The position numbers and the translations under genes were made by a program. The notes below the pieces were generated by a model. The model was not told where the DNA came from, ran no database searches, and saw nothing but the letters and a program-made list of their open reading frames with translations. From positions 29,492 to 93,491 of the forward strand of contig JBBHKE010000556.1 in the NCBI GenBank assembly GCA_037447655.1: DNA of 64,000 bases, given 5' to 3'. Every line of letters begins with the position of its first letter. Position 1 is the first letter of the stretch. Positions 20,001 through 59,714 of the stretch are shown here, in pieces. The DNA comes from Zygnema cylindricum. Its lineage: Eukaryota; Streptophyta; Zygnematophyceae; Zygnematales; Zygnemataceae.

Positions 20001-23000
20001 TGGTTTGGCCTCACATTGACGTCAACCGGATGTTGCAAATTCTCGTTTAAGACGGATCAGACTATATTACGTCAAGAAGAAAAGTATTTCGATTATTTTC
20101 TTTATCCCTTCTAAGTATTGTGTCAGTATTCATGTTATACATTCATTATCCACACTTTTTGATAATGTACATTAGAGCTTGGTTCAGTCTTAATCCTCCA
20201 GGTGTATAAGATGCTTTGTTTTGTTTCTATCTAGCACTTTAAAGGTTCATGTCATGGCATTTTTTATGCGGTTTTCATCAACAACGGCGGATATTTTACT
20301 AGTTTGTTTAGAAGGGCCAAAGGCATCAGAGTAGCAGTGTATCAGTCCAAATTTGAACAGGTGCATATCTCTGTGCCATCCCGTATCATAGACAGTATGC
20401 ACATCATGGTGCTGACACTGTTCTTTGCCTTCTCTTCCAAAGCATCAAATGTTAGTAATGGTCTACAGTAACTTCAAGGTATCTCGACTAATTCTGGGTC
20501 AAAAAGTCAATGGGCCTTTTTATTTAATTTGCCGGGAGTTCTAACATGGATGATTTGCATTAATAATCGTGCCAAAGTCCATCTGTGGCATCCGATACAA
20601 CATAATGGGTTAATAAAATAAAGACACAGGATTGGAAATGTGTGTGGAAATTCCGAATGTTATTGCAGAAATTTCCTCACTAGTGCAGTTACCCCAGCAG
20701 ATGATAAGATGGTAACCGGAAGTTGCTCACATACTCCTGGATCTTTGGGTGGCGGGGATGGCCAATGACAGGTTGATACAAATCTTGCACTTGAAACACG
20801 AAAAATGATTAAACGGGAGTTTAAAAGTGTTGCTCAGGCACATGCATGGCATTTGTCAGAGTTAGGAACTCTGACTCTTGAGGGACGAACTGAGCGTAAC
20901 CCCCCTATTTGTGCAACTCTTCCTTCACCTATTAAAGATCCGACAGGGCTTGAAGCGGAGGTGTCCAAGAATGAATATGTAGTGGACAGTTTCAGTGAGA
21001 ATAGGTTGCATTCAAGTGATGTAGCAAATAGTGATTTGCGATCTGATGATGGAACAATGGACTATGCAGCTCCTACCTCTCCAATCCGGCGGCAGTTATA
21101 TGCATTTCATGAAGGTGCAAAGAGAACAGTCTTGAATTTTGAGTCTGTTGAAGACTGGAGTGTACAGAGTGGGGAGTGCAGCAATGAAGGGGAAGATGGC
21201 AAGATGAGCAACCATGTGCACGAGGTGTCTTGCTGGATGGAAGAATGTCATGACAAATGTGGTCCCTGGGAGTTACGAAGTAGAGGATTTAATGTGTTGA
21301 ACTTAGATGCTGTCAAGAATACAGGAACTGTGACTCGTGACCATTATATAGAGCATGCTGTTGTTTCAGACATGTGTGAAGAGAATGGAGGTAAGAGATT
21401 GGAAAAGTCCGTGGGGAGCGAGAATGCAACAGGAACTGTGACATGGCCGCTAATGTTGACTGACATATCTGACAGTCTTGAAGAGCCAGTTTACTGGGGC
21501 TCAAGGAACAATCTCCTAAATTGTGGGGTGGGGCTGAAACCACCTGTGAGTGCTTCTCTTACTAATGGAATACCCCCCCCTTTGCCAATCAGTGATTTAA
21601 GTTTTCTTGTAGATAAGCATGGAGTTAATCATAGGAAAGCATGCGTAGCAACTCAGAGCATGTGTTGTAGGGCAAGTGGTGCATTCAGCAACCATACGGA
21701 AGCTATTGAATCAACTGATGGATGCACTAACTCAGAAACAATGAATCAATCTGGTAGAGGTTACTACATGGAGGCAGTTGCAAGCAACGGCGTAACTTCT
21801 GATGATATAAATTTATCAGACTCTTTTCAATTACAGGGCCCAAACAAGCAGAGATGTAGCCACTCGTTGGAAATGTTTGTAGAAGGTGACTCCAACAGGC
21901 GGCAATCGGTTGACAAGAACGTAGCGAACAGTGAATTCAGCCAAGAAAGATATTCATACGGAAAGGAAACGTTTTTGTCAGCTATGTATAGTGGTGGACC
22001 TGGAGGTTTTGATTGGGGAAGGCCTCCTGGTATGGAGGAAAATTTTGCAGGGTCCATACATGCAGTGGAGAAAACTTGTGAAAAAGCTGGAAGGACCCAA
22101 CAAAGCAAATTAGTCCAGAGGATTGTCAATGAGGAACAAAGGGGAGAATGTGAGCCTGAAACATTAGATGAGGCGACAGTCAAAAGGAGGTTGGAAAGTG
22201 TAGATTTTGATTCGCTGCCAGCTACACCAGTTACAGATGGGCAGACAACCTTGGCGAGTTTAAATGTCCGACCCATTCATTACAGAGACAAGATTGTTAT
22301 CATACGCTTTAGAGATCTGGCCCTTCCTGGAGAGCTCCAGAAGATAATAACCGCAGACCTACGGCTTCTCAAGATGCTTGAATCTGGACTCCCGCCATGG
22401 GCTGTCTTTTGCCAATCCTGTCCTGTGCTATGCCATGTTTATCGACCATGGATGCGATCTTTGGCGCTTTATGTGTACTTTGGTGTGTCGGTTACTACGG
22501 TCTTAATTGGATTCTATGACCTCTACAAAAACGTTCCAGTATTGCGAGAAGCAATTGCCCGTTTGCTTGGGCCTCTGTCTGTGTGGATTGATGCATGGGG
22601 TGTGGGGTATCGCCTTAAATATTTAGGAACCATGCTTGTGCTTCAAAACCTACAACGGGCTTTGAAAGTCATCATCTCTCTTTTAAGGGGACTCAAACAT
22701 TTATTGAGCTTTATGTTGCAGCCTATATATACCCCACTACTATCAGCCATAGATTGGCTTTGGCCAATTCTTGGAGTAAAGTGGGTTATTTGTGCAATTG
22801 TTGTGGAAGCCAAAGCTGCACTTTGGAAGGTGGGGTGGAGTGTTGGTGCATTTTCTGGAGCCACATTGTCGGTTCTGGCTCATTTATTGATGCCACTATG
22901 GCGACTCTTTCTGCTCTGGTGGACTGTAGGTGAGCTGTTGAGAAGTTATTCTGATGGTTTTCACTTCTGAAATTACTTTCTTTAGGTGGTAATTTTAAAG

Positions 23001-34860: not shown

Positions 34861-35634
34861 TTTTTTGGCACCTCCGCCTCTACAGTAGGTAGAACTGCTG
34901 CCACCATCCCTGAAGATGAAGACGAGGAAGGAGAGGAGATTGTCATAGAAGGAGAAAAGGGAGGAGTTGCAACTCAAGTGACACCATTGCCGAAGGCGAT
35001 AGCGACAGCAGCACCACCAGCAACGGCGATAAGGGTTCAGACCGAAAGATCAGAGTATGAAAAGTGGAACTACAAAGACAAGGTTGTTAATCTCTTAATT
35101 CTTAAAAGTGTAGCAAAGGGCATTGCCATTTCCCTTATGCATGTCAAATATTCATCTCAGATTTGGATATCACTAGTTAACAAATATAAGAGTGGATCAT
35201 TACAGCAGCAACAGTTGGCAGAAAACAAGATTGCAACTTATACTTATAAGGGAGGAAGCATGAATAATTATTGCAATGATTTAGGAGCATTATTTGGAGA
35301 GCTAGAGAGTGCAGGTAACTCATGGTATGAGAGACAAAGAGTGAACACATTAATGATGAAACTACTTGAAGAGTATGAGAATATTATTAATCGATTGCAG
35401 GACATAGGAGATAGCAATTGGGATTGGGATGACACAGTGGGAATGATTTTAGTGAAAGAAAGCACTATAGAGCTTAGGAGAGGGAGTCCAAGTGTTCAAG
35501 CATTGTCTGCAAGAGCTGATTGGCGTAAACGTGATGAGGAGAGAGAAAGATTCTTATCAAAACTTTGGAGGAAGAGGACAAAGAGGAGAGGAACTTTTCG
35601 AGGAGGATTATGTCACTTCTGCAAGAAACCGTGA
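34861..35634 (+). pseudogene. gag: Copia A gag, N terminus lost
   Basis: The reading frame is open from before 34978 and encodes the C-terminal two thirds of a copia gag. It includes 'KSVAKGIAISLMHVKYSSQI' and a basic stretch ahead of the zinc knuckle 'CHFCKKP'. The knuckle is broken by TGA at 35632-35634 where glycine is expected; the rest (H-x4-C) continues in the same frame after the stop. The missing N terminus matches the deletion that also removed the end of the 5' LTR. The element cannot make an intact capsid protein. Confidence 0.85.
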
Positions 35635-35640
35635 CACTAT

Positions 35641-38600
35641 ATGGCAGATTGTGGCAAACTTGCAGATCTTCGACTAAAAGATGGGCAAGGGACCTCAAGA
35701 AATGGAGGAAAGAAAAAGGCTTTCCTAACTCAAGTTCATGATGAGCAACAGAACGAAGAAACCGAACAGGAAGAGGAGCTTGAGGAGCTTGAGGAGCTTT
35801 TTCTTAATCCGAAAAACACTGAAAAACATGTTGACATTCCACGGAGACAAAAGTGTGCTTTCGGAGGTAACATGGATCCACCTGAAGATGGGTGGATCAT
35901 AGACTCAGGGGCTTCAATGCATATGTGCAAAGATAAAAGGTGGATCACTAAACTGAGAATGATCCCAACAGTTGAGATAGAGTACGGAGATGGTAGAGTA
36001 GAAACCACAAGTCTTGTTGGAACTGTTGACTTGAAGGTTCTAGTTGATGGAAAGGCCTCAATTGCAACACTCTTAGACGTTCTTTACATTCCACAACTTA
36101 GTAAGAACTTGGTCTCAACAGCTGTCCTAGATGAAAAGGAGTTTAAAACAGGAACTAGGAATGGAATCTTCACTACAAGCTTTGATAATAAGGTATATTT
36201 CATAGCTGAGAAAGGCAGTCAGGGAATGTTCAAAATTTTTCTTTGCAATGAAAAGAGTGTTCTCTACTCGTGTGCAAGTGTTAGATGATGCTTTTGCACA
36301 AAAGGTTGGGGCATGTGCATCTAGATAAATTAAAGAAAATGAAAAAAAAAGAATAGTGGAGGGTATTACTTTTGAGGATGATGAGACCTTTGATGATTGC
36401 AGTGGATGTGCCCAAGGGAAGATTCATAGACTTCCATTTCCAAAGGCAACCACATTTAGGAGAGAGAAAGTATTGGATCTAATTCACACCGATGTTTGGC
36501 GACCTGCTGGATATGCTTCACATGGGGGGAAGAGGTGGATGTTAACTATCACAAATGATTGGTCTAGATACACGAAGGTATACTTTCTCAGACATAAGTC
36601 AGAGGTATTGAGATGTTTCAAAGAGTATGAAGTATGGAGTGAAAAATTACACGAAACCTCAATAAAAGAGATAACAAGTGATAATGGGAAAGAATACACC
36701 TCAAGGGAATTTGAAGAATATCTTAAAGGAGAAGGAATTCATCATGAGAAAACTGTTCCCTATAATCCGGAACAAAATAGAGTCGCAAAAAGAGTGAATA
36801 GAAATTTAGGAGATATATCCAAAAGTATGTTAACTAATAACAGGATAGGGTTGCAGTTTTGGGCGGAGTCTATGAACTATGCTAATTTCATCAAAAATAG
36901 AGTCCTAACTTCAGCAAATAAGGAGGAAACTCCGTATGAGAGGTGGACAGGAAGAAATCCTGATTTGTCTTGTTTGAGAGTGTTCGGAAGTCAAGTCTAC
37001 AATTTGGATTCTGATAAGACTAAATGGAATTTAGAGGGGAGAGGGAAGCCAAGATATCTTGTAGGATATGATGAGAGCACAAAAGGATACCGAGTGTATG
37101 ACTTGAAAAAGAGAGATATAATTTTAGTAAAACACATAGTGGTGATGAATGAAAAGAAGTCCATTGATCCATTCAAATATAATAAGGAAGTCAAAATCAA
37201 ATTTGAAACGGATCAGTTTTCTGACTTTGACTTTGAAAATGAAGAGAAGGAAGAGGGAGAAAAAAAAATATCTGCAAATCTACTTAAGGAGAAGGAGGTA
37301 AGGACAACATCCGAGGCAACGCCACAATACGAAGTGGAAACAGATGAGGGACTTGATGAGACAGCGGAATTGGAAGATAGGGTAGCTGAAAATCTCCCTA
37401 AACAAAACCCAAGGATGCCTTCCAAACCGGCGTCCGATTTTGAAGGGGGAAGAAGAAGTAGTAAACGACTTCAAGAAAGACAAGTAAATAACCAACTCAT
37501 AAAGATGTCTCACCCAGATGAACCTCAAACATACTTAGAGGCCATAAACACTCCAGAAAGTAGCCGGTGGATCATACGTATAAATGAAGAAATGGCCTCT
37601 ATCATGGAAGCCAATACATGGGAGTTGGTAGATTGTACACCGGACCGAAAACGGATCGGATGTTAGTCGGTTTTTACACTTAAATTAAACCCGGATAATA
37701 CCATTAAGAGGTACAAAACTAGGTTAGTTGCAAAAGGATATACTCAGAAAGAGGGGATAGACTACGAAGAAACCTTTGCACATGTAGTCACATTTCCTTG
37801 TGTTAGAATCCTTTTAAGTATAGCCGTAGCGGAGGATATGAAAATACACCAGATGGATATTAAAACGACCTTTTTGCACGGAGAGTTGGAAGAAGAAATT
37901 TACATGAGGCAACCGGAAAGATTCGTGGAAAGTGGGGAAGAAAACAAAGTTTGCAAACTGATAAAATCACTCTATGGGCTTAAGCAAGCCCCGCGACAGT
38001 GGAATATAAAGCTCGACGAATATTTGACCGGTTTGGGGTATATCAGAATTAGTTCAGATCACTCCATATATTTATTTGAGGACAAGGATGGAGTGATATT
38101 TATTGCTATTTATGTGGATGATTAGTTGGTCTTAAGCAAGTCCTTAGATAAAATTAACAAACTAAAACGGGATATTAGAAGCCGCTTTAACATGAAAGAT
38201 CTCGGCGAAGCAAAGTATATTTTGGGAATTCAAATGGAGAGAGATAGAGGGAATAGAATTATAAGACTCACTCAAAAAAAACAATTAGTAATATGCTAGA
38301 AAAATTTCAAATAGTGAAAGCAAACTAATGTACTACTCCCATGGATTTGAAGAAAGTGTGTGAGGGGAGTAAACAGAGAGCAATATTGATCATTAATGAT
38401 GAGATAGATGCGATAGAGAGAAGATTTATGGAAAATATCCCTTATCGGCAGATTATAGGTAGTTTAATATATTTTATAAATTGTACCCGGCCGGATATAG
38501 CTGCAGCCGTAGGAGTCCTCAGCAAGAGTCTAAATGAACCAAGAAAGAGAGACTGGAGGCTGCCAAAAGGGTGATGAGGTATCTGGTGGGGACAAGGGAA

Positions 38601-42380: not shown

Positions 42381-44915
42381 TCTGGAGGGAAGAAAAAGGC
42401 ACTTTTGGTCACAAAAATGACAAGAGAGACCGAGGACGAGTCCTCTGAGGAGGATGTGGAGCTTCTTCTTAACGAGAGCCTTGAGGAGAAGGAGATCCCT
42501 TGGAGACAGAAGTGTGCCCTTGGAGCAATTCGGGAAGCTCCACAGGAGGGATGGATCATCGACTCAGATGTATCCATGCATATGTGTCGTGACAAGGACC
42601 TCTTCACTAAGCAATGGAAAATCCCTACTGTAGAAATAGAGTATCGAGATGGGAGAGTGGTTACTACAGATCTAGTGGGATCAGTAGATCTGAATGTCTT
42701 AGTAGAGGGCAAGACTTCTACACTCACATTCTCAGATGTACTTTACATTCCTCAACTTAGTAAAAATCTTGTCTCTACGTCTATATTAGATGACAAAGAG
42801 TTTGATACCTTCACTAGAAAGGGAGTCTTTACTAATAAATATGGGGATAAAGTTTACTTCACGGTAGATAAGGGTAGCCAAGGACTGTTTAGGCTTAACC
42901 TGAGAAATGAAAAGAAGAATGCTTACTATGTTGGTGTTCCTAAGTTGATGATTTGGCATAAACGATTTGGGCATGTGCATTTTGATAGGTTGAGGGAAAT
43001 AAAAAAGCTTGGGGTAGTAGAAGGCATTCAGTTTGGGGATAATGAAATGATTAATGATTGTAGTGGTTGTGCTCAAGGTAAGGCTTAAGACTTCCCTTTC
43101 CCAAAGCCGCTATATATAAAGGTGAGAAAGTATTAGATCTAGTCCACACAGATATCTGGGGACCTGCAAAAGTGCCTTCGGTTGGAGGAAAGAGGTTTAT
43201 GTTGACAATAACCGATGACTAGTCTAGATACTCTAGAGTCTACTTTCTAAAAACCAAGTCTGAAATATCAACTTACTTCAAAGAATATAAAGCTTGGAGT
43301 GAGAAGTTGCATAGAACCCCCATTAAGAGGATAAGGAGTGATAATGGGGGGGAATATACCTCTAACCAGTTTTAGGAATACTTGAGAGATGAGGGAGTTC
43401 AGCACCAGAAAACTGTACTATATAACTTGAAACAAAATGGGGTAGCTGAGAGGATGAACAGAACACTAGGAGATAGTGCATGTAGTATGTTGGCCGAGAA
43501 GAAAATAGGAAAAGGATTTTGGGCAGAGGCCATGAACTGTGCCAACTAGATTAAGAATAGAGTCCTTACCTTAGCTGTAAAACGATTGACACCTTATGAG
43601 AGATGGGTGGGAAGGAAACCAGATATCTCTCACCTTAAAGTATTCGGTAGCCAAGTTTATAGTCTTGACATGGATAAGAAAAATTAGAAACTAGATGTTA
43701 AGGGAAAACTTGGATACTTTGTAGGATATGATGAGGATGTCAAGGGATATAGAGTATATATCTTAGCAAAGAGAGATATCATTCTCGTCAAACACCTAGT
43801 TTTCATGGATGAAGGGAAGTCATTTGACCCTTTTACATATACCGAAAAGATAAAAATCAGATTTGAGTCCGAAAATGAGGAGGACTCCATCCTTTCCGAA
43901 AGGGACATGAGTGAAACAAGGATTGCAAATTCAGGGGAGATCCAAGACATATGCAATCCACCGGAAACCTCACATATTCCTATAGACTTCGAGGAGACAG
44001 AAGAGGAGGAACCAGAACCGGCTTCCATGGATAGGGGAGCCGATGAGACAATAAGGAGAAATCCAAGACTTCCCTCCATCCCAACTTCGGAGTTTGACAG
44101 GGGGAGAAGGAGCAACAAAAGGATCCACGAAAAACAAGCGGCTCACAAGGAAACTAAGCTATCTAACCAAGATGAGCCTCAGTCATACTCGGAGGCACTA
44201 AACAGTCCGATGAAAGACAAATGGAGTAGAGCCATAAATGATGAGATGGCCTCTATCATTGAAGAAAATATTTGGGACCTAACAAACTATCCTCTTGACA
44301 GAAAATCGATTGGCTGTAAAAGGGTGTTTAAAATAAAACTGAACCTAGATAATACTATTGAGAGGTATAAGGCTCGATTGGTAGCAAAGGGGTTCACCCA
44401 AAAGGAGGGGATTGACTATGAGGAGACTTTTGCTCCAGTTGTTCGGTTCCCATCAGTAAGGATTCTCCTCTGTGTGGCAGCAGCGGAAGACATGGAAATA
44501 CACCAGATGGATATTAAGACTGCTTTTTTTAATGGTGAGTTAGAGGAAGAAATTTTTAGGAGGCAACCGGAGGGATTTGTGGAAGAAGGAGAAGAGAGCA
44601 AAGTCTATAGATCATAAAGTCCTTATATGGACTGAAGCATGCTCCTCCACAATGGAACAAGAAACTAGATGAGTTTCTCACCGGTCTGGGATATATTCAG
44701 AAAAGCTTTGACCTTTGTATCTATATGTTTGAAGATGACACTGGTGTCATTTTTATTGCAATTTATGTGGATGATTTGCTTGTGTTGAGTAAATATTTGG
44801 AAAAGATTAATAGGCTAAATAAAGATCTTAGAAGCGGATTTGATATGAAGGATTTAGGTAAGGTAAGATACACTTTGGGGATCCAAATGGGTGAAAAAGA
44901 TTATCTGACTTACTC
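42381..44915 (+). pseudogene. pol: Copia B pol, 3' truncated in reverse transcriptase
   Basis: Protease: 'WIIDSDVSMHM', where the catalytic DSGA has become DSDV at about 42561. Pre-integrase: 'HKRFGHVHFDRLREIK' with 'CSGCAQGK'. Integrase: 'HTDIWGP', 'SDNGGEYTS' and an intact 'QNGVAERMNRTLGD', but with stops at about 43218, 43373, 43548 and 43685. Reverse transcriptase: 'YKARLVAKGFTQKEGIDYEE', 'QMDIKTAFFNGELEEEIF', 'YGLKHAPPQW' and 'AIYVDDLLVLSK'. The copy breaks off after 'LGIQMGEKD' at about 44900-44915, so RNase H and the 3' LTR are absent. The sequence that follows belongs to the next element, and its insertion or a deletion may have removed the end. Confidence 0.9.
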
Positions 44916-44949
44916 AGAATGTCATGCCGCATGGTGTTGGTCGCGGGCA

Positions 44950-45160
44950 TGCACGATATTTTGCATGGGCGCACGATATATTGCGCATGCACGCATGATA
45001 TTGTGCACGCGCGAGCGATATTTTGCATGCGTGCACGATATTTCGCACGCACGCACGATATTGTGCACACGCACGCGATATTCAACACGCTCGAACGAAA
45101 TCATACACGCACGCACGATTATTTTTGCGCGCGTGCATGATTTCCGTTCGCACGTGCAAA
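44950..45160. repeat. 20-bp tandem array, about 10 units
   Basis: The units resemble GCACGATATTKTGCACGCGC and are degraded towards the right. The units are partly self-complementary (GCGC, TGCA). Overlapping open frames on both strands result from the repeat and are not genes. Tandem arrays of this kind are common in LTR U3 regions. Confidence 0.85.
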
Positions 45161-45349
45161 GGCACATCGGTTCACTTATCTTTGACGTGTACGCGATTCG
45201 CGTACACGTCTATTTGTATATGTACTAATTTCGTGCGTACTATTGTTTCGTTTCGTGCGCAGGTACACAATTTTGGAGTACATACGTGAAGTAGCGTTTG
45301 GCGATACAGCGCGATATCCGGGAGTACCATCGACGCTTCGATGTACCAT

Positions 45350-45360
45350 TATATATTTAA
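45350..45360 (+). promoter_or_regulatory. TATA-like box of the putative gypsy LTR
   Basis: TATATATTTAA lies in otherwise GC-richer sequence about 2.2 kb before gag. It is the best core-promoter candidate in the stretch. The call is based on sequence only. Confidence 0.4.
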
Positions 45361-47596
45361 GTCGCGAACCCATGTAGGTTCGCGCGTACATGTAGTTAGG
45401 GAGGGTTTTTACCCTCGGACGGTGGATTTTGTTAGGCGTACGGCAGACGATGTTGGTCGCCTATTGGCCAAACATCTTAAGTAGTTCATTCATGTGAACT
45501 AGCCTAGACTTAGGTTAGGGTTTGCGTAGGCGTAGCGTAGCTAATACTTAGTCTATTTTCAGACTTAGAATTTCTAGCTTTTGGACAAGAATTTTCTCTT
45601 GGCGGCGGAGCTTTTCTCTTGCTCTCTCTCTCACCGATTGCTCAAGTTTCTTCCTTTCTTTGCTAGCTAGCTGTAGAGGCTAGATAGTTTACGTACATTC
45701 TCCCTTGTAATTATGCCCACGCTTTTAATCCACGCGGCTCAAAGCCAAGTCCGGAAGGTTTCCCTCCAACTTGTGTCATTTTGGGAGGTGGTGGATTGGA
45801 GTTCGTGTGGAGAAGCATCCGGATCCGGCTGCCCTTCCCACGGACAGCTGAACGGTTTAGGTGTTTGTTTTTGTGTTGTTTGTATTTTCGGTTGGGAATG
45901 GAAGGGTGAATTTTGGCCGAATTTTGAGTTTTCCTTGTTTTTGGTTGGAATTATTTATTTTGCTTCGTTGCTTTCGTACGAGATAACTCTTGTAAAGAAT
46001 ACGTTGAAGACCTAAGAGCCTAGTGGCTACCTTGTGGCTGAGTATTCTTGTCCAAAAGAAAATAAAAATAAAAAATCTATTAAAAATATAAATTTTATTT
46101 TATATAAAAAAAAAATAACATTTTGTTTTTGTTTTCCGCTATTTCTTTCTTTCAATCTTTGTCTCTTATTTTGCTGCCACTGTATTTCTTGGCTTCGTGT
46201 GAAACCTAAATTTTGTATCGAATTTAGGGTTGATCTGCAAAATTAGGGTTAATCTACAGAATTAGGGTTCGGAGGCAGAATTAGGATTTTGGCTGCAAAA
46301 TTAGGGTTGCAGCATATTTAGGGTTTATTCCTTTTGATTCCAGTCCTTAGGTCAGTATCCTTTTATTCTTTGGCTGCAGATTTGGAGTCTTGGCCGTCTA
46401 GAATTAGGGTTTTCCTTTGGAATTAGGGTTTTCCAAGTGGAATTAGGGTTGACTGCTGGCTTTGGATTATTGTGGTCACAAGTTGGGCTGTATATCTGGA
46501 GTTTGAGCGGCCTCGTACTTTATTCTAACACACGTTCCCTATCTATCGTATTTGTTTGTCTTATTGTTTATTTTTCTTCCACCGAACGCTATCTTCCCTC
46601 CCTTCCATTGATCCCCTAACATTCCACGACATACATCTTCACGGTACAAACGGGTCTTGCGGAGGATTATTTTGGAGACGTTGCTCGGAGCGAATTTCGT
46701 GGAGTGAATTTTATCACAGGGAGCTGTGCAAAACCCGACTTGCTTCGAACAAGTTCGGTTCACCCTTAGTGCTCACCAAAGCACTAAAGGTGTCTGTAAG
46801 TAGCCGATGCCTTGCGGGTGCAAGAGCGTTCCGATTTAGTGTGGACACTCGTGTAGGGGATCGGTGTGGAAGGGTTCCATAGTGAACCTTTTTTATAGAG
46901 CATTTGCATTTTCCGGCTTTCCCTGCATGCTATCTGGCCCTAAGTGGCCTTGGATTTTCTTGTGACTATCTGGAGTGGGATTTCTTGCTAGATCTTGCCG
47001 TGGGTGGCACTTTGTAGACCTTTTCCCGGCTGTGTTCTTGTAGATCTGCACCCTAGGGTGCCTAGATAGCAATTTTCTTGTTTTTATAGATCTAGCCCTT
47101 TGGCCTTGCCAACTGTTTGCAGGGTAGAGGTTTTGGTAAACCGACTTCTTGCTAGATACGACCATCGGGTCTTGATAGTGACTGGTGTGTTGACTGGACG
47201 AGTGGATTAGTTTGACATGTGTTGCATCTCGATTAGGTCTTGCCAAACATTTCATTATTGTAGTCAGGGTTTTCCCCTTTGTTTGTGCCCACAGATTGGG
47301 ATAACCTTCATTATTTATCCGAGTCCACCCAAAGAGGTACACTGTATCGTCCTCCGCAGATAAATCCTTCGGATTTTCCCGAATCATGGACCACATCCGA
47401 TCCGATTACGAATCGCAGATCGTCGTCAGTGCGGTCTGGTCTCACATCTACGTCATCTGTGTCCTCGGTTTCATCTAGGTCACAACTAGAGGGGACCGAA
47501 GAAGACTTCCTAGAGGAAACCTTTCCTACTCCTCACACTCGTAGGTCCCCTATCAGCCCATCTTTGGCACAACCGGCCAATCCTTCCCTTTATGAC

Positions 47597-49169
47597 ATGG
47601 CTTTCTCTTCAGAGGGATCCATGGGAAGGATGCAATTCTGCTTTTCCAGATTAAAGGACACCATGTCCTTGTCGCATTTCCGTATGTTATACAATACGGA
47701 AATGAGGGATTTAGCATTTAGATATCAGGATAGGTTTGACCTCTGTGTCGCTTTTTCCCTACACGGTCGATACCTTCGTGGTACGGCCCGCACACTCTAC
47801 ACTCGCAAGTACAAGGATGTGCTTCCGATGACAAAGTACGTGGCTCCCTTTGCGGGGTTACCAGAAGTCTTAGGCCAAGTGGATATCCCATATCAGGCAC
47901 CAAGACCAGTAGTATTAGATGCCAATGGGGACCAGTTCTATCCAGCTATCCCCGAGTTTCCTCGTCAGTATGCACTGGCTGCCCGAGCGGCGGTCCCAGC
48001 TAGAGCGGGGGGCACCATTCCTTTACGTGACCCTCTTTCATTAATGTTTGATATCCTCCAAGAGGAGTACCGGATGCAAAATCCGGATCAGATCAAAGAG
48101 ATAATGAACTTCGAGCGTAGGACAGGTGAAACTGGCCTTGCCTTACGAGCTCGGATAGAAAACTCTGTAGGAAGCATTACCGGACCTCATGTCCGATGCG
48201 GAGGCTGTCCAAAAATTTGTGGGACAGTTTCCATGTCCATCAAAGAGGTTTATCCAAAACCACCTCAGTCAGATGTATGGACTGAAATTCACCTTTGAGC
48301 AAGCGGCTCAATACGTGGTAGAGTATGAGATGCAGACATCGTGGTGGGACGCCCATGAGCGTTCCAAACCTCCTTACAGAGAACCGGTCAATCCATCTCC
48401 TCCTCCACCTAAAAAGCCATGGCCTCCTAATAGGCCCCAGAAGACGCCGGCCATGGGAACTCCACCCGTTAGTCCCGGAAACCGAATGTGTTTTCGATGT
48501 GGAAAAACCGGGCACGATGCCCGCATGTGTCCGGACAAGGCGGCCACTTGCACTCATTGCCACCAAAAGGGACATTATGTCCATCGGTGCCACATCAAGG
48601 ACCCTAATTTCACCTATCAAAATCAGATAAAGAACGGTGGAATTCCGGCGCGTTCGGCGAAACTAGTCACTCCGTCTAAGGAGACCGAGAAAGAGGAAGC
48701 TCCCCCTAAGATCTCTCTTAGAGAGAGAGAAAAGGCCGAGCTTCAAGCCACAATGGCGACCATGATGAAAGAGCAATTTGCAGCTTTCATGGCGGAAATG
48801 AAACCCCAGTTTATTAAGACGGCTAGGACCGTTGTCCACATGCCGTCGTTGGTCGGGCGAACCCTTCGGGATTCCACCGTCCAACAACAGGTTGCCACAT
48901 TTGAAAAGGGCTCGAAAGACCATAACCGAGTGGGCAAATTACAAAATTCTCGTGTCCCACTCTCATTTGCGAAAGAGCATTTGCCTTCCCTACCGAACTC
49001 AGTTCATACCATCGCGGCAGAGGCACTGACCATATTGGAGGGCACTATTAATGAAGCTCATCGGGTAAAGGAGCGATTAAGTATTTATTCCATAATGTTG
49101 GAGGATGTACCGAAAGCCCTTCCCCTTGTTGATGCGGTCGCAGCAGCAGCCGCTTTGAGGGCTCTGTAG
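47597..49169 (+). pseudogene. gag: Gypsy gag with two zinc knuckles (one frame change)
   Basis: The frame is open from 47279; the first clear ATG after the Ser-rich leader is 47597. The capsid-like part includes 'RTLYTRKYKDVLPMTKYV' and 'PLSLMFDILQEEYRMQNPD'. At about 48190 the gag reading passes to the +1 frame (48189-49169) with 'DAEAVQKFVGQFPCPSKRF'. This second part has a Pro-rich linker and two CCHC knuckles: 'CFRCGKTGHDARMC' (48489-48530) and 'CTHCHQKGHYVHRC' (48549-48590). The C-terminal part is charged, with a long helix around 'EKAELQATMATMMKEQF'. The frame change may be a mutation or a programmed shift; one copy cannot tell. Gag ends at TAG 49167-49169. Confidence 0.88.
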
Positions 49170-49259
49170 TTAAACCACAGTCTCTCAGCGGTTCAACCCG
49201 TTACTACAAAAAAGCGTCGTAATCACGATCCCCATATCAGTATCTTGATAACTCACGGG

Positions 49260-49650
49260 GATCATTCTCAGTGAACGGTGTTCACCCCACTCTTCCTCTC
49301 ATTGACATTGGGGCCAAACCCGTGATCCTCGGATCCGGATTTGCGCTCAAGCTTGGTCTGACAGCAGACAAGCTTTAGGCGACTACTACCCGCCTTCTTA
49401 CTTCGGCTGGGACCACGGAGCCGGTCCTCGGAATCACAAAGGACCCGCTCATCTTTCGGTTTGAGACAAGAACCGAAAATGAGTCCGTTGAAATTGCTGT
49501 CAGAGTATTAGTCACTAAATGTGACGACTATAAGTGTTTGGTGGGTCAAGACGTTATATTCCGAATTGGCGGTGGTGTGGACATGCACGACCAAACATTT
49601 TCTTATCGACCAACACACTTTCCGGAGCACAAAATATGCCTCCCTCTCAC
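49260..49650 (+). pseudogene. Gypsy retropepsin-like protease
   Basis: The motif 'LPLIDIGAKPVILG' has the catalytic Asp at 49304-49306 (usually DSGA or DTGA; here DIGA). After an in-frame TAG at 49376-49378 the domain continues with 'CLVGQDVIFRIGGGVDM', which matches the C-terminal part of proteases in this gypsy group. The frame is the same as that of the methyltransferase that follows, so the two were one polyprotein. Confidence 0.75.
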
Positions 49651-49954
49651 TTCAGCCCGCCGACCTTTGCCCACTATGGCCCACTCGGCTACGGCTCTTC
49701 CTGCATTTTTGGGGAACTCCGTTGGAGAGGAAATTTTCCACTCTCTTTCAACCGAAGAAATTATATCGGATAGTTCTCCCTTACCCGAGCTCTTTGCGGA
49801 ACTAGGTTTTTTAATTAATTCTCACACCTTTGACAATATTTATAAGTCTGCATTATCTATTCAATTAACGACCATCCCTCCTATACCGACGTTTGCAACC
49901 GATCCTTCGGGTTTCGATCCAATCAGTTGGAAGCCGGTACAGCTGAGTCCTCAT

Positions 49955-50925
49955 ACGGACGGAGTCGTTATTCTAGACCTATTTGCTGGGATCGGAACTT
50001 CACTATTGTCATGTTTGCGGAATGGTCTCCTCATCCGTCACTACTACGCGGTAGAAATTGATGCATTAGCTAGAAAAGCACAACTGCATCACTGTAATCT
50101 CCTGCATACACAGTATCCACACTTGTTTCCAAAGTCAGCCTTTCTACACATGCACACTGCTCTGCCACAAGACATCCGCATCCTTAGTAATCATCATCTT
50201 CGGGATGTCGAACCGATAGACCTTGTTTTTGGAGGGTGGGAGTGTCAAGGCATGTCTCGGGCCGGCAAAGGTCTTGGTTTAGTGGATCCCCGTACCAAAT
50301 TGTTTTTTGAGCTTTTGAGGGTCCTTCATTTTCTTCAAACCATGGCGAAGCTTGTCGGATACATTTTAGAGAACGTCGCCGCTTATAATGATCCTTGACC
50401 AACAGTTTTGGCCGACTATAAGCGCATAGAACACCTTATCGGACCCTGCTAATTATTGATGCCGCTCGGCATGGGTCCTTAGCACATCGCGTTCGCTCCA
50501 AATGGACGAACCTAATCGATGTTGGTCCTCTTCGTGAGGCTAATTTGTTGGTACGACCTTCCACTATAGACATTACGACCGCTTTGCTTCCTTTCCACCT
50601 AGTCCAATCATGTGTCCAATCTGACTACCCTCCGAATTACAACATTAATGTAACGGGCCAGCCCCTCAAGGTCCTTCCTACTTTAGTGTCTTACCCTAAT
50701 TCCCATGCATACTCCCATAACGGTCTAGGCATGCTCTGGAATAATGTCAGTGGAGAGTTAGAGGAGCCTACGGCCACAGAACAAGAGCATCTCATGCATT
50801 TTATTCCAGGCACTACTGCGGCCGCCGACCTTACACATACACAGCGTTGCACTTTGTTGGGTAGGGTCATGGATCCTCAATCTTTATCATTTGTCTTAGG
50901 TCTCTGCCTTGCAGCTGGTCGCTAC
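49955..50925 (+). pseudogene. Cytosine-5 DNA methyltransferase domain inside the gypsy polyprotein
   Basis: The domain has C5-methyltransferase motifs in standard order. Motif I is 'LDLFAGIGTSLLSCLRNG' (49976 on), followed by an acidic cofactor motif 'YYAVEIDALA'. Motif IV is 'DLVFGGWECQGMSRAGKG', with the catalytic Cys at 50243-50245, then 'LVDPRTKLFFELLRVL'. Motif VI is 'YILENVAAYN' (ENV at 50369-50377). Motif VIII is 'LAHRVRSKWTNL' (about 50480-50520). The last motifs are 'NSHAYS', 'ELEEPTATEQEHLMHF' and 'RCTLLGRVMDPQSL'. The small recognition region and the AHR-R-W-NL pattern recall DNMT3-type enzymes. Two breaks kill this copy: TGA at 50396-50398 and a 1-base frame change at about 50450. 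The domain lies between protease and reverse transcriptase, in the protease frame. The usual Pro of the PCQ motif is Glu. The methyl donor would be S-adenosylmethionine; the target is unknown. Confidence 0.93.
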
Positions 50926-52794
50926 GCACAGAATCACCCCGTGCAACCAGCTGGGGGGGGGAATACAGCGGCTCCTTCACGGCTTGTTTCCTCTCGCACC
51001 TCTCCTAGTCTAAAGGGAAATCCATTTCAGTTTTTTCTCTTCCCTTCTCTCACACCGGCGGTTAAGGACATCTATGATTTCCTCAACCCCAGTCATATGT
51101 CTTGGGAAATCCCGGCCTATATAGCCGTTCAATCCACAATTTCATCGTTTCTTGGCCCTCCACCGCACTGGACAGCTGCATTTCCGACGCGTAGCTGGCA
51201 CCATTGGGTGAACTGCTTGCAGCAAACTCCGGTAAAATACGAGTTAGGCCACTCACTCATCGCCGATGAGCAAATTGCATTTGCTCAGGCCATGGAAGCT
51301 TTCACTATTAAGAGTCCCGAGACGCCCAAGTGGAAGTTCGGTTCCAGTCTCACAAAGGCGGAACAGGCACTATTAAGTGACACAGTCACCCGTCATATAG
51401 ATGCGTTTGCTTTCTCCATGAATGACCTTGGACGTCATTCTACTTACAAAATGTCAATCGACCTTGAGGACGATCGACCTATCTTTAAGCCGAAACACCG
51501 TCTCTCTGAAATGGAATGGGAGATGGTGGACAAAAGATGTGCAGAATTGGAAGAAGCCGTTCTAATCTATTGGTCGGATTCCACCTTTGCCGCCCCCACA
51601 GTCATGCCGAGGAAGAAAGATTCCGACGGAAATTTTATTGAGCGAAGAATGTGTGGGGACTATCGAGAGCTCAATGCTCGGACCGTTCAAGATCGCCACC
51701 CTATGCTTGTAGCGGAGGAAATATTTGACCATGTAGGTGGTGCAAAGTTCTTTAGCATTCTTGACTTACGTCAAGGGTTTAACCAAATTGAAATCGAGGA
51801 AAAAGATCGGCATAAAACTGCATTCTGGGGCAGTGATGGTCGGTGGGAATGGGCAGTCATGCCTTTCGGTCTTAAAAATGCACCCGCCGTGTTTCAAAAA
51901 TTCATGGATTGCGTGCTGGGTGGATGTAAATTTGCCCGGTGCTACATCGATGACTTGATAATCGCTTCCGCCACGGTTGAGGAGCACGCCCGACATATTG
52001 AGTGGGTTCTCACCGAGTTAAAGAAAGTCGGGCTGAAGTGTCACCCAGCCAAGTGTAATTTCGGTGCGGAGGGAGTGCCCTATCTCGGCCATTTTATTTC
52101 GGTTGAGGGCATCACTCCCTTGGAAGCTAAGGTAGAGGCGATCACCAAACTGCTGCCCCCCACGGATCTGACCAGTCTGAGGGCTTTTCTCGGACTAGCC
52201 AATTATTACCGTCGGTTTGTATTGAATTTTAGTACGATTGCTTCTCCCCTCAATGACCTTCTCAAAAAAGAAGTGCCTTTTGTTTGGGGATCCACACAGG
52301 TAGAAGCGTTTCAAAAACTAAAAACCGCCCTCTCCAGTGCTCCCATTCTTCGACCTCCTAACCACAAGCTTCCCTTTTGCCTACAAACTGATTTCGAGAA
52401 GCCAGACATTGTTGTTATTTTAACGCAAAGAGAGTTGAATGGAGAGGAATACGTAGTGGCATACACTACCCGGAGCAATAACCGATCTGAATCTAATTAC
52501 TGTAGTTACGAGGGTGAATGTCTTGCCGCGGTATGGGGTATTGTTCATTTTCGACATTATCTTTATGGCAAGCCATTCACGCTCCTAATTGACCATCAAC
52601 CCCTTCATTGGTTGATGACCAACGATAAGCTTTCAGGGAAGCTTACCCGATGGGCTTTAATTTTACAAAAGTATGCCGTTGAGATCATCCATCGGCCCGG
52701 TTTGTTAAGCTTGAACGCCGACGGGATTTCTCGGAATCCACTACCCCGGACCACCGATACGATGTCCGGCAAGATTTTGAAAAGACGAGGGTAG
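50926..52794 (+). pseudogene. pol: Gypsy reverse transcriptase and RNase H
   Basis: A linker of about 170 residues follows the methyltransferase. Reverse transcriptase then runs from about 51440: 'PRKKDSDGNFIERRMCGDYR', 'FSILDLRQGFNQIEIEEKD', 'VMPFGLKNAPAVFQKFMD', the catalytic 'YIDD' at 51943-51954, and 'GVPYLGHFISVEGI'. RNase H follows: 'LQTDFEKPDIVVILTQ' (TDAS usual), 'YEGECLAAVWGIVHFRHYL' and 'DHQPLHWLM'. The frame is open throughout 50545-52794, which makes this the best-preserved part of the element. It ends at TAG 52792-52794; the integrase is in another frame. Confidence 0.95.
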
Positions 52795-52799
52795 CGGCC

Positions 52800-53340
52800 A
52801 TGTCCGCTGTTTCCTATATCACTTACTATCTTTCTTCTATCCCTCACCCTTGGCTGGCCACAGATCCGTGGCGCGACGGCCCGTTAATCCTCTTCCTCTC
52901 CTCTCAAACCTTTCGGCCCGATACTACCGCCGAGGAGGAAGACCGAGTAAAGAAACGAGCCAAAAACTATCTGTGGCTCGACGGATCTTTAGTTCGATTG
53001 CTGGCGGACAGCAGTCATCGGCATGTCCCCCGGCCAACCGAGCGCTTGTCCTTGATTGAGCAGATACATGTCGAGCTTGGCCATTACGGAACCAAGCGTA
53101 CTTTGAGCCTTGTACAGGCACGCTATTGGTGGTCCGGAATGCAAGCGGATGTGGCGGCCATTCTCCACAAATGCCCCACATGCGACCGGTTACGCACCTC
53201 TTTCTCTAATCGGCAGGTGTCTCTACAGCCATTGCCCATGAGAGGATTCTTTTATTGCTAGTCCGTGGATCTCGCCGGACCGTTTCCCTTATCTCGGAAG
53301 GGGAAACAATAAATCATGATAATGATTGAAAATTTTAGCA
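52800..53340 (+). pseudogene. pol: Gypsy integrase, cut by copia D
   Basis: The zinc-binding domain is clear: 'HVELGHYGTKRTLSLVQARY' followed by 'CPTCDRL'. A TAG at about 53259-53261 interrupts it. The core begins with 'SVDLAGPFPLSRKGKQ' (first catalytic Asp) and ends at 'IENFSK', where the copia D LTR starts. The second Asp and the Glu are missing from the window. No gypsy sequence resumes after copia D. Confidence 0.88.
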
Positions 53341-53345
53341 AGTGT

Positions 53346-54383: not shown

Positions 54384-56826
54384 CTAGTCAATCTTTAATT
54401 TCAGACTGCACTTCTCCCTGCAAAAAATTAGCTTAGGGGAAGGAACAGGTTTGGTCATCATATCTGCTACCATCTCACTATCTGGTCTGTACTCTAAACT
54501 AGTTATTTTGTTTTCTACTTTCTCTCTAACAAAGCTGAGTCTGATGTCCATGTGTTTGGCTTTAAAATGATGTTTAGGATTGGCTGAAATAGCGATTGCT
54601 GCCTGATTATCACAAAAAAAAAATTGCACATCACATTAAGGTGACCAAGCTCACCAAGCAAAGACTTGACCCACATCTATTTTTTTACAGCAGAGCAAGA
54701 TGCCATATACTCAGCCTCCATGGTGGACTGAGCAATAACTTTTTGCTGTTTGCTACTTGAACAGCAAGCCCCATCATCCACATATAATACATATCTAGAA
54801 GTGCATCTCCTCATCGGAGCATCACCATAACTAGCATCACTCCAAGTAGTGATGTCAGTATTTTTCCCCACCCAAATGCAACCATAGTTCCCTAGTTCCT
54901 ATCAAATATCTAAGGACTCTTTAGCTGCCTCGCAATCTTTCTTAGTGGGAGCATTTAGACTTCTACTCAGCACTCCAACAGCTGCAGCTAAATCCGGCCG
55001 GGTACAATTGATAAAATAGATTAGACTTCCCACTACTTGTCTGTAAAGAATAGTCTGCATAAACTTCTGTTCTTCAGGAGATAATTCCTCGTCTAAGACT
55101 ATGACTCCTTCTTCCTCACTCCCCTCACTTCCCTTCTTCAACTCCATTGGAGTTGTACAACTATTAGCTTTATCCATTTGAAATTTTTCAAGCATGTTTC
55201 CTATTGCTTCCTTTTGAGGCAGTCTTATAATTTTCCTTTTTCAGTCTCTCCCTACTTCAATTCCCAAAATATATTTTGCTTCTCCCATATCGTTCATTTC
55301 AAATCTCCCCTTAAGATCAGTTTTCAGTTTATTAATTTTTTCCATTGATTTACTTAAAACAAGCAAATCATCAACATAAATTGCAATAAATATAAAACCT
55401 TCCACATCTTCGAAAAACATAGATTGAGTGATCTGAGCTGATCCGAATATATCCCAGACCGATAAGAAACTCATCAAGCTTCTTATTCCACTATCGAGGC
55501 ACCTGTTTCAAACCATAAAGAGATTTAATCAGCCGGCATACCTTACTCTCCTCTCCTTCCTCCACAAAACCTTCGGGTTGTCGCATGAAGATCTCCTCTT
55601 CCAATTCTCCATGCAAAAAGGCTGTCCTGATGTCCATCTGGTGCACTTCCATGTCTTCCACTGCTGCTAAACTGGAAAGTATGCGGAAGGAGGGTAATCT
55701 GACCACCGGGGCAAAGGTTTCCTCGTAGTCAATTCCCTCCTTTTGTGTAAATCCCTTTGCCACTAATCTGGCCTTGTAGCGCTCGATTGTATTATCTGGG
55801 TTTTAGTTTTAATTTGAAAACCCAATTACAACCGATTGGTTTTTGGTTAGGTGGACAATCCACCAGCTTCCAAGTATCGGCTGCGATAATTAAGACCATC
55901 TCCTCATTGATGGTTGTCTTCCACCGGTTTCTTTTTGGACAAGTCATCGCCTCTCCATAAGTTTGAGGTTCATCTTGATGAGATAGTTTAGTTACCTTGT
56001 TATTAACTTGTTTTTCTTGCAATCTTTTGCTACTTCTCCTCCCCCCTTCAAAATCTGAGGTCAGAATAGATGGTTCTCGTGGATTCTTTCGAACAAACTC
56101 GGCTTCTCCCCTATCCCTTGATTCTGAATCAATTTCCACCACGTCTTCTGCTTCGGGTAGAGTTGTCACTGGAGTTTCCACAGCCGAGTCCTTTTCGGTC
56201 TGATTTGTACCTGCAAGAATGTCATCTTCTCTAAAACGTGGATAGTTAGGAAGCTCAAAGTCATCGGAATTTTTTGACTCAAATCTGATTTTTACTGACT
56301 TCGTATATTTGAAGGGATACACACACGTTCCTTCATCCATAACTACTAGATGCTTTACTAAGATTATATCTTCCCTTTTTTGATCATAAATTCTATACCC
56401 TTTAACATCCTCATCATATCCTAATAAGTATCCTGGTTTTCCTTTAGGATCTAGCTTCCAATTGGACCGATCAGTATCTAAAATAAATACTTGACTGCTG
56501 AAAACCTTTAAGTGAGATATGTCCGGTTTTCGGCTTGTCTATCTCTCATAAGGTGTTTGATCTTTTACACCTGAAGTAAGAACTCGATTCTTGAGGTAAT
56601 TAGCACAGTTCATTCTTTCTGCCCAAAACCTTTTTCCTATCTTTTATCTGACAATATACTTTTAGCACTATCACTTAGTGTTCTATTTAACCTTTCAGCT
56701 ACCCCATTCTGTTCCGGATTTTTTGGAACTGTCTTTTGGTGTTAGACCCCATCTTCCCTCAAAAAATCCTCAAACTGGTTAGAATTATACTCTCCACCAT
56801 TGTCACTCCTTAAATTAGTTTTAGTA
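54384..56826 (-). pseudogene. pol: Copia D pol, 5' truncated and broken
   Basis: Read from 56826 down: integrase from its second Asp ('SDNGGEYNSNQF', 'QNGVAERLNRTLSDSAKS', Glu intact), then the linker with 'VVMDEGTCVYPFKYTKSVKI'. Reverse transcriptase has 'AKGFTQKEGIDYEETFAPVV', 'QMDIRTAFLHGELEEEIFM', 'YGLKQVPR' and 'FIAIYVDDLLVLSKSME'. RNase H has 'WSDASYGDAPMRRC', 'STMEAEYMASC' and 'KHMDIRLSFVREKVENK'. Gag, protease, the integrase N terminus and the 5' LTR are gone. Stops or frame changes occur at about 56740, 56640, 56540, 55791, 55485, 55240, 55200, 54900 and 54640. It is closer to copia B in wording than to A, but its LTR belongs to another subfamily. Confidence 0.92.
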
Positions 56827-58262: not shown

Positions 58263-58569
58263 GTCACGTCACTAGGACTAGAAGTGATCCGAGAAACATG
58301 CATGTGGTGGTACTGTTCGACGTTCTTCTGTGCATTCATAGTGTGGTTGTATTCTGTTGCGTTCTTCTGTTTATTAATGTTTATCGATGTTAATTTGTTT
58401 GGCAGAGAAGAAAAAACCGGGATCCAGCTGGCAGAAAAGACAAAAATGGGATCCAGCTGGCAGAAAAGAAAAAACCGGGATCCCGGCAGAAAAGCCAGAA
58501 TTAGGATCCTAGAAAAGAAAAATTCCGATCCAACCGGCAGTTGAGACAAAACCGGGAAACAAAAAATAT

Positions 58570-58880
58570 GAAAAAACAAAACTGGAAAAGACAAGGCCGG
58601 AAAAGACAAGGCCGGAAAAGACAAGGCCGGAAAAGACAAGGCCGGAAAAAACAAGGCCGGAAAAAACAAGGCCGGAAAAGACAAGGCCGAAAAAGACTTG
58701 GCCGGATAAGACAAAGTCTGAATGGGCAAGGCCAAAAAAGACATGACCCAAAAAAACAAGGCCAGAAAAGACAAAATTGAAAAAGACAGCCGGAAAAGTC
58801 AAAACCGGAAAAGACAAAACCGAAAATGACAAAACTAGAAAAGACAAAACAAGAAAAGTCAATCCTCTAAAAAACCTCAA
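58570..58880. repeat. 15-bp minisatellite
   Basis: The unit AAAAGACAAGGCCGG is repeated about 10-12 times, with drift to AAAAGACAAAACCGG at the right end. Milder forms continue to about 59060. Because 15 is a multiple of three, long open frames arise on both strands. They are repeats of one pentapeptide and not genes. Confidence 0.9.
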
Positions 58881-59109
58881 AAACCGGAAAAAACCAAACC
58901 GAAAAGGGACAAAACCCTAAAAAGACAAAACCCGAAAAGACAAAAACGAAAAAGAAAAAACCGAAAAAACTAAACCGAAAAAAAAACTAAAATCGGAAAA
59001 AAATCTGGAAAAGACAAAACCCTTAAAACAAAACTGGAAAAGACAAAATCGGGATCCAGCTGGCAGAAAAAGAAAACCGGGATCCAGCTGGCAAAAGTCG
59101 GTCCCGACA

Positions 59110-59470
59110 TACGAGGCGGTGAGTGGGGGAATAGGGAAGGGGAGAGGGAGAGGGAGGGGGAGCGGGACATGGGGAGAGAGCGGGAGGGAGTGAGCGAGAG
59201 GGAGGGGAGGGGCAGATGGAGAGGGAGGGGGAGAGGGAGGGGAGGGGCAGATATAGAGGGAGGAGGAGAGGGAGAGGGAGGTGGAGAGGGAGAGGGAGAT
59301 GGAGGGGGAGAGGGAGAGGGAGAGGGAGAGGGAGAGGGAGGGGAAGAGGGAGGGGGGTGGGAAAGGGAGGGATGGGGAGGGAGGGGGAGAGGGAGAGGGA
59401 GGGGGAGGGGGGGAGGGAGAGGGAGGGGGAGAGGACAAGGAGAGGGAGGATTAAAGGGAGCGAGAGGGGG
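59110..59470. repeat. Purine-rich (GGGAGA)n-type tract
   Basis: About 360 bases are almost wholly G and A on the plus strand, built from GGGAGAGGGAGG-like units. There are many G-runs of three to six. The long Pro/Ser/Leu-rich open frames on the minus strand are artefacts of this tract. Confidence 0.92.
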
Positions 59471-59714
59471 AGAGGGAGCGGGAGCACACTGCCTTAGGAT
59501 TAGGGAGAAATGATTGAAATGGTACAACTGGGTTTTTTGTGCTGCAGGTTCTCTCTCCCCTCCCTTCGGGCAAATAAAACTTTAAGGTGAAAAATCCTCC
59601 CTGGCCGAAGCAAGGCTGGCAAGAGCCAGAAAACCAGTACTGAAAAAGGAAAGGTGAGAGATAATAAAAAGGAACTGTATAGTTTTTGAGATGAAAAGGA
59701 ACGAAAGGGAATGA

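Follow-up and report, generated by a model that had tools for sequence, protein, structure and literature searches.

A gypsy-type retrotransposon family of Zygnema cylindricum with a DNMT3-class cytosine methyltransferase in its Gag-Pol

Our analysis of a 64,000-nucleotide stretch of the Zygnema cylindricum genome (hereafter the window) revealed a gypsy-type element, almost certainly a dead member of a retrotransposon family that has many copies and carries a DNMT3-class C5-methyltransferase (DNMT) and a C-terminal PHD finger in its Gag-Pol. The many copies in the same genome, a 352.8-Mb assembly of 2689 contigs that contains the window, and the related elements in other green algae imply an element family and not an accident. 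Taken as a whole, the identity of the element together with its proposed way of working is the best explanation of these data, to which we assign a probability of roughly 75%. The leading idea for the enzyme is that it would mark the element's own DNA.

The damaged copy in the window

The element occupies positions 44920–53344 of the window on the forward strand and is a damaged copy of the DNMT-carrying family that we designate A. Its nucleotide identity to three other copies (L013, L020, and L027) is 92.6–94.0%, and alignment to the same three finds nothing further past 53344. The 5′ end at 44920 reads TGTCATGCC, the same as at the termini of three copies from elsewhere in the genome (L009, L014, and L018). 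It opens the 5′ repeat A1, perhaps together with the start of the leader (44920–46120, +), a region that is 96.9% (44920–45586) and 92.4% (45381–46120) identical to L013 and contains 20-bp sub-repeats near 44936–45137. A probable gag follows on the same strand in two parts: a stop-to-stop ORF at 47264–48298, recognized by alignment to relatives and with no match in a Pfam scan, and a second ORF at 48171–49169, assigned by its match to an L009 segment, with a CCHC zinc knuckle at 48432–48641 (PF00098, E = 0.0018, under the curated Pfam cut-off). The aspartic protease (49238–49690, +) is present in two pieces, 49238–49375 and 49382–49690, and was assigned by its match to the protease segment of L009, which itself falls under the Pfam cut-off (Asp_protease_2, E = 0.012). 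Further downstream on the forward strand, reverse transcriptase (RT; 51469–52251; PF00078, E = 6.2e-28) and RNase H (52264–52731; PF17917, E = 2.5e-29) both lie in the ORF at 50422–52794. The last feature (52998–53344, +) comprises the integrase zinc domain (52998–53210; PF17921, E = 1.6e-16), carried by the ORF at 52683–53261, and the very start of the DDE core, where the copy is truncated.

The earlier note on this DNA had placed a C5-methyltransferase between the protease and the RT, and this placement is borne out: PF00145 matches the ORF at 49379–50398 (E = 2.4e-10 in a Pfam scan of the window ORFs) and the expected motifs occur in order, flanked by the zinc knuckle and protease on the 5′ side and by the RT, RNase H, and integrase zinc domain on the 3′ side. 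The N-terminal half (49934–50395, +), supported by PF00145, homology, and motifs, includes motifs I (DLFAGIG, 49976–49996), IV (GWECQGMS, 50234–50257, which holds the catalytic Cys and has E-C-Q in place of the usual P-C-Q), and VI (ENV, inside 50366–50392). The C-terminal half (50449–51018, +), homologous to positions 173–360 of the 361-position L009 DNMT segment, includes motif VIII (HRVRSKWTN, 50485–50511), a PT motif (50674–50697), and an X-like motif (LLGRVMD, 50854–50874). The location first given for the domain was 49955–50925; comparison with the intact L009 sets its bounds at 49934–50395 plus 50449–51018. The domain had also been assigned to the protease frame, which is true of its N-terminal half but not of its C-terminal half, which lies in the frame of the RT. 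A stop codon at 50396–50398 splits the DNMT, and this stop, the different frames of the two halves, the two-piece protease, and the loss beyond 53344 indicate that the window copy is broken and dead.

The gypsy-type element is flanked in the window by two related copia pol stretches (43332–44891 and 55251–56812; 71–74% alike) in opposite orientation. Elsewhere in the window, positions 58405–59513 hold dense tandem arrays of approximately 15-bp AAAAGACAAGGCCGG and GGGAGA-type units, a 733-aa open frame at 20769–22970 (+) is without a Pfam or PDB match, and a possible host Exo70 exon is present at 7125–7571 (−; E = 3.6e-5, barely under the cut-off).

The presence in the assembly of a CP24 (Lhcb6) gene, with 78% identity (136/174) to the best solved CP24, points to a streptophyte host, CP24 being known only from streptophytes. 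The new lineage that the earlier note foresaw for a land plant or an unsampled alga would consequently be new no higher than genus or class, since at the broad level the host belongs to the same group as the Klebsormidium case discussed below. The host genome also encodes a CMT-like methyltransferase exon (L007), which scores 102 bits against the 4fsx chains, which we take to be maize ZMET2, and 51 bits against animal DNMT1. Weak PF00504 matches are clustered on several contigs, and the two such loci inspected by eye look like ELIPs; light-harvesting and ELIP-like gene arrays, on both strands, were observed on contigs C519, C2590, C1116, C610, C1077, and C889 of the assembly (G000). A search for the RuBisCO large subunit gave no match, so plastid contigs seem to be absent from the assembly. 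A search for the LFY C domain likewise gave none, but neither did its controls. For Zygnema cf. cylindricum SAG 698-1a_XF, PMC11096116 gives a Copia content of 29.8% and 35 ELIPs, figures with which the copia elements of the window and the ELIP-like arrays are in keeping.

A multicopy family with relatives in other green algae

A continuous polyprotein, which the earlier note had proposed to seek among other copies in the genome, is indeed present: L009 encodes a single frame of 2395 aa with a gag zinc knuckle (CCHC, protein position 449), protease (708), DNMT, RT (1496), RNase H (1739), integrase (1962–2128), and, C-terminal to the integrase, a PHD finger (2338–2382), the zinc knuckle and the protease both scoring under the Pfam cut-off. 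The DNMT of this family-A copy has at least 113 scored matches in the genome (from 1903 candidates), at least 21 of them with no stop in the matched part. The PF00145 profile has at least 123 (from 782 candidates), including the host CMT-like exon, and 20 loci picked among these PF00145 matches were retrieved for close study. Among them, L011 and L012 represent a second family, B, in which the DNMT is near the start of a pol frame of 1520/1525 aa that continues through RT, RNase H, and integrase to a PHD-like stretch (L011 protein 1472–1516). The PHD matches of this family score 17.5 and 21.5 bits against a Pfam cut-off of 24, and its pol frame yielded no protease.

A listed DNMT match lies just upstream in at least 60 of the 146 RT copies (147 rows minus one 35-aa fragment), the DNMT lists being incomplete. 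From the 86 RT copies with no listed DNMT match, 20 were drawn randomly and the first 10 inspected within 1.7 kb; five had a DNMT of at least 329 aa (several in pieces), one had 201 aa, and one a 21-aa remnant. In the other three no DNMT was found within 1.7 kb, although one of these (C1506) has a listed match further upstream, such that two of the ten were without any trace of the domain. The DNMT beside the listed and most of the randomly drawn RT copies implies that it belongs to the family as a regular component. Its status as a component of the element, as claimed in the earlier note, is thus upheld, and the contrary outcome, with the domain missing from the other copies, was not what the genome contained.

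A profile built from 13 element DNMTs scored 91.7 bits against DNMT3A among solved chains, versus 48 for DRM2, 46 for HhaI, and 34 for DNMT2. The nearest solved relatives are DNMT3A/B, and these scores place the element enzyme nearer to DNMT3/DRM than to the bacterial, DNMT1, CMT, or DNMT2 enzymes; the 57 chains retrieved at E ≤ 0.001 included none of DNMT1 or CMT. With DNMT3A ranked first, the profile scores do not favor an origin of the domain from DNMT1/CMT or from bacteria. A structure model of one relative (P0056; mean pLDDT 58.5, with 49–93 per block of ten in the DNMT part) was used for a fold search, in which the best 50 of 1508 matches were all DNMT3 entries, at modest target-normalized TM-scores of 0.31–0.62. 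Ks of the DNMT could be measured in 10 of 21 pairs, for which Ka/Ks was 0.12–0.39, and was saturated in the remaining 11; a few close protease and integrase pairs reach 0.3–1.3, values resting on very few changes. Between subfamilies, Ka was 0.12–0.19 for the DNMT, 0.15–0.18 for the protease, 0.03–0.05 for the RT, and 0.05–0.07 for the integrase, indicating that the DNMT evolves faster than the RT and at a pace like that of the protease.

When the broken window ORF served as protein query, only four bacterial-looking enzymes were retrieved, and an intact copy was required to find more: the L009 DNMT identified 45 relatives. Haematococcus lacustris accounts for two of these and Closterium sp. 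NIES-54 for one, four are EukProt entries, and the rest come from contigs. Two domain orders were distinguished among them. In type 1 (8 of 45, including Closterium) the protease and/or DNMT precede the RT, with P0012 and P0013 assigned from protease–DNMT alone, and in type 2 (35 of 45, including one Haematococcus protein) the order is RT–RNase H–DNMT–integrase; neither order was assigned in the remaining two, P0025 among these. A PHD match was found in 33 of the 45. The DNMT alignment as query gave a list of 120 proteins that opens with several dozen apparent fragments of such elements and goes on to bacterial-looking ones, with no named DNMT3 gene among them.

The two orders separate with support of 100/98 in an unrooted DNMT tree with 52 sequences (42 from the relatives and 10 from copies in the Zygnema genome), in which P0025 falls with type 2, and of 100/99 in an unrooted tree of 41 RT+RNaseH sequences (33 relatives and eight Zygnema copies). 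The Closterium protein groups with P0014/P0021 in both quick trees. This common split by domain order implies that the DNMT and pol travelled together, so a move within Pol, or a second capture, would be needed only once among the sampled elements. The position of the two orders on either side of one branch in both trees would also be consistent with related DNMT3 genes having been captured twice independently, before the RT in one case and after the RNase H in the other, in place of a single capture followed by a move. Against this, the element DNMTs cohere with respect to a single DNMT3A row and five bacterial rows (in an analysis with long-branch warnings), and PHD tails and the E-C-Q variant are common to both orders; we therefore consider two captures a serious alternative, albeit the less probable one. 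Type 1 was unresolved in the rooted quick DNMT tree, which had a single DNMT3 reference and long-branch warnings, and holding type 1 together was not rejected. Within type 1, the DNMT and RT trees disagree over P0050/P0052 and family B.

Split repeats and a possible circular route of integration

The Pfam matches of L009 follow the Ty3/gypsy order of gag, protease, RT, RNase H, and DDE integrase, the integrase core matching rve (PF00665, E = 1.7e-11), and no tyrosine recombinase, the hallmark of DIRS elements, was found in the L009 scan. Canonical identical long repeats at both ends are absent, and four copies (L009, L014, L018, and L011) have instead the split direct repeats that are a feature of DIRS elements. 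Because the repeats are split and do not have the canonical LTR form, we use the label gypsy-type, as has been done for KnitGypsy.

In the three family-A copies examined at both ends (L009, L014, and L018), the layout is A–coding–polypurine tract–B–GC–A–B. Repeat A measures 931 bp in L009 (two copies with 0 differences), approximately 1385 bp in L014 (99.64% identity), and approximately 1475 bp in L018 (99.5%), and repeat B measures 243, 190, and 192 bp, respectively. The element ends read TGTC...GACA in each, and all three are bordered by 4-bp target duplications (TTGG, AAGG, and CCCT). The inner B–A junction, GACA-GC-TGTC, is a perfect palindrome, and its GC is absent from the outer ends. 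The one family-B copy examined, L011, likewise has the A–coding–B–GC–A–B layout and the palindrome; its flanks are without a matching target duplication, and an extra 3.7 kb lies between two copies of the pol end. The family-B pol end and B repeat are duplicated there at G000:C1374:31308–31632 and 35349–35679 (L011, L047, and L048), and the region looks as if two copies had recombined. Across these four copies of two families the A2–B2 joint is slightly variable and the B1–A2 joint invariant, in agreement with end-joining. No tRNA primer-binding site was recognized by eye beside A1 at the A1/internal junctions.

The 4-bp target duplications and the palindromic GACAGCTGTC junction suggest that the integrase cuts a circular intermediate; foamy-virus and HIV integrases are described as cutting palindromic junctions (PMC1180852, PMC1905944). 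A possible cycle would begin with a single Gag-Pol, as the 2395-aa frame implies, that is subsequently cut by the protease. Reverse transcription, with the plus strand primed at the polypurine tract, which adjoins B, would then yield a cDNA with a long B–GC–A repeat, and this cDNA would be circularized by joining its A end to its B end. The DDE integrase would cut on both sides of the GC in the GACA-GC-TGTC of one repeat, with loss of this GC and a 4-bp duplication of the target, leaving the A–coding–B–GC–A–B layout; the end products are those observed, and to this route between them we would give even odds. Slightly less probable, in our judgment, is a final step in which the DNMT, borne in the particle, would methylate either the cDNA or the circle, at insertion or earlier, with the PHD finger helping to choose chromatin. 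The most likely benefit would be that the incoming DNA resembles host DNA or inserts quietly, such that the host tolerates the element.

The ratio of observed to expected CpG was 0.88, 0.89, and 0.94 in three family-A stretches and 0.63 in family B, with 0.51 in a copia stretch, 0.67 and 0.84 in two other window stretches, and 0.62 at a host-gene locus. The family-A stretches are not CpG-poor, and hence heavy CG methylation left no mark there; the youth of the copies or non-CG targets could be the cause of the missing depletion. The residue before the catalytic Cys is also unusual. A Pro at this position is near-universal in known C5-methyltransferases, and its replacement may indicate altered activity; of 52 element rows, 41 have Glu there, 10 have Pro, and one has Asp. 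The motif-I Phe is found in 44 rows (Cys in seven, a gap in one). Both the E-C-Q variant and the lack of CpG depletion in family A would be consistent with a domain kept for binding or RNA methylation and not for DNA methylation, as would the Klebsormidium enzyme, which gave no methylation in yeast in an assay that its authors call inconclusive (PMC5890265). Nevertheless, all 52 rows keep the catalytic Cys, the motif-VI Glu-Asn, and the two motif-VIII Arg, and P-C-Q is retained in 10 rows, including all four of family B, and we consider such a role improbable.

An outward action, in which the enzyme silences competing elements or changes the host methylome and does not act on the element's own DNA, seems more doubtful still: the family is numerous and the CMT-like exon means that the host could maintain such marks, but the domain is fused into Gag-Pol and would presumably enter the particle together with the nucleic acid of the element itself. 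That a methyltransferase gene of the host, a bacterium, or a contaminant landed by chance in a single gypsy copy, as the broken reading frame of the window copy might suggest, is refuted by the recurrence of the domain at the identical place in other copies and in elements of other algae and has a negligible probability.

The widest scenario would be that of an old green-lineage clade of gypsy-type elements that acquired a DNMT3 once and has kept it since. In this clade the domain would have moved within Pol as the elements divided into one branch known here from streptophyte algae and another from a chlorophyte, and a DDE integrase would be combined with a DIRS-like circular cycle, cutting the repeat palindrome and integrating a self-methylated circle. 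We advance this combination only tentatively, and it is unlikely to hold in every part.

Comparison with known elements

Chromoviruses are Ty3/gypsy elements that have a chromodomain, a chromatin reader, after the integrase. The Zygnema element shares with them the gypsy type and a chromatin reader C-terminal to the integrase, but this reader is a PHD finger, no chromodomain was found in our scans, and the element differs further in its DNMT and split repeats.

Our literature search on gypsy elements with a cytosine methyltransferase led, among the texts listed, to PMC5890265 and, in their accessible parts, to texts citing it (PMC6338049, PMC12344493, and PMC9861306). Nothing was found for Closterium in connection with a retrotransposon and a DNA methyltransferase, and no Haematococcus case was among the matches listed. 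According to the review PMC6338049, the hosts of methylase-carrying (DAM/DCM) Ty3/gypsy and DIRS elements include green algae and charophytes, and presence in green algae is thus not new as such. The available text of that review lumps adenine and cytosine enzymes and names no element like that of Zygnema; a 2025 survey (PMC12344493) repeats the streptophyte and dinoflagellate cases.

Among the dinoflagellate elements, SymbioLINE-Dnmt is also a retrotransposon with a cytosine methyltransferase, but it is a LINE with an orphan DNMT lineage (PMC5890265). SymbioDIRS-Dnmt3, active in Symbiodinium, shares with the Zygnema element a DNMT3-class domain in Pol, A–coding–B–A–B repeats, and two domain orders; it has a tyrosine recombinase, whereas the Zygnema element has a DDE integrase and 4-bp target duplications (PMC5890265). 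The closest counterpart is KnitGypsy-Dnmt3 of Klebsormidium nitens, described by de Mendoza et al. 2018 (PMC5890265), which resembles the Zygnema element in its DNMT3-class enzyme within a gypsy Pol ORF, its DIRS-like repeats, its streptophyte host, and purifying selection on the domain. Compared by description, the two may be kin, although domain order, a PHD finger, target duplications, and a palindromic junction are not given in the accessible description of KnitGypsy-Dnmt3 (PMC5890265). None of the hits of our protein searches bore the name Klebsormidium. The study attributes the enzyme to an acquisition by the K. nitens lineage (PMC5890265), whereas homologs of the Zygnema element reach Closterium and Haematococcus.

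Relative to these systems, the new features are the retention of the enzyme across a family, the kin in Closterium and the chlorophyte Haematococcus, the two domain orders with matching trees, the frequent E-C-Q active-site variant, the PHD tail, and the details of integration. The split repeats, palindromic junction, and 4-bp duplications provide a checkable model of a DDE integrase that uses circular DNA, and the question of why a transposon carries an enzyme that normally silences transposons becomes testable. The one gypsy-DNMT case described in detail in the literature consulted is thereby widened to a many-copy family in one genome, which includes a seemingly recent copy and has kin in further green algae.
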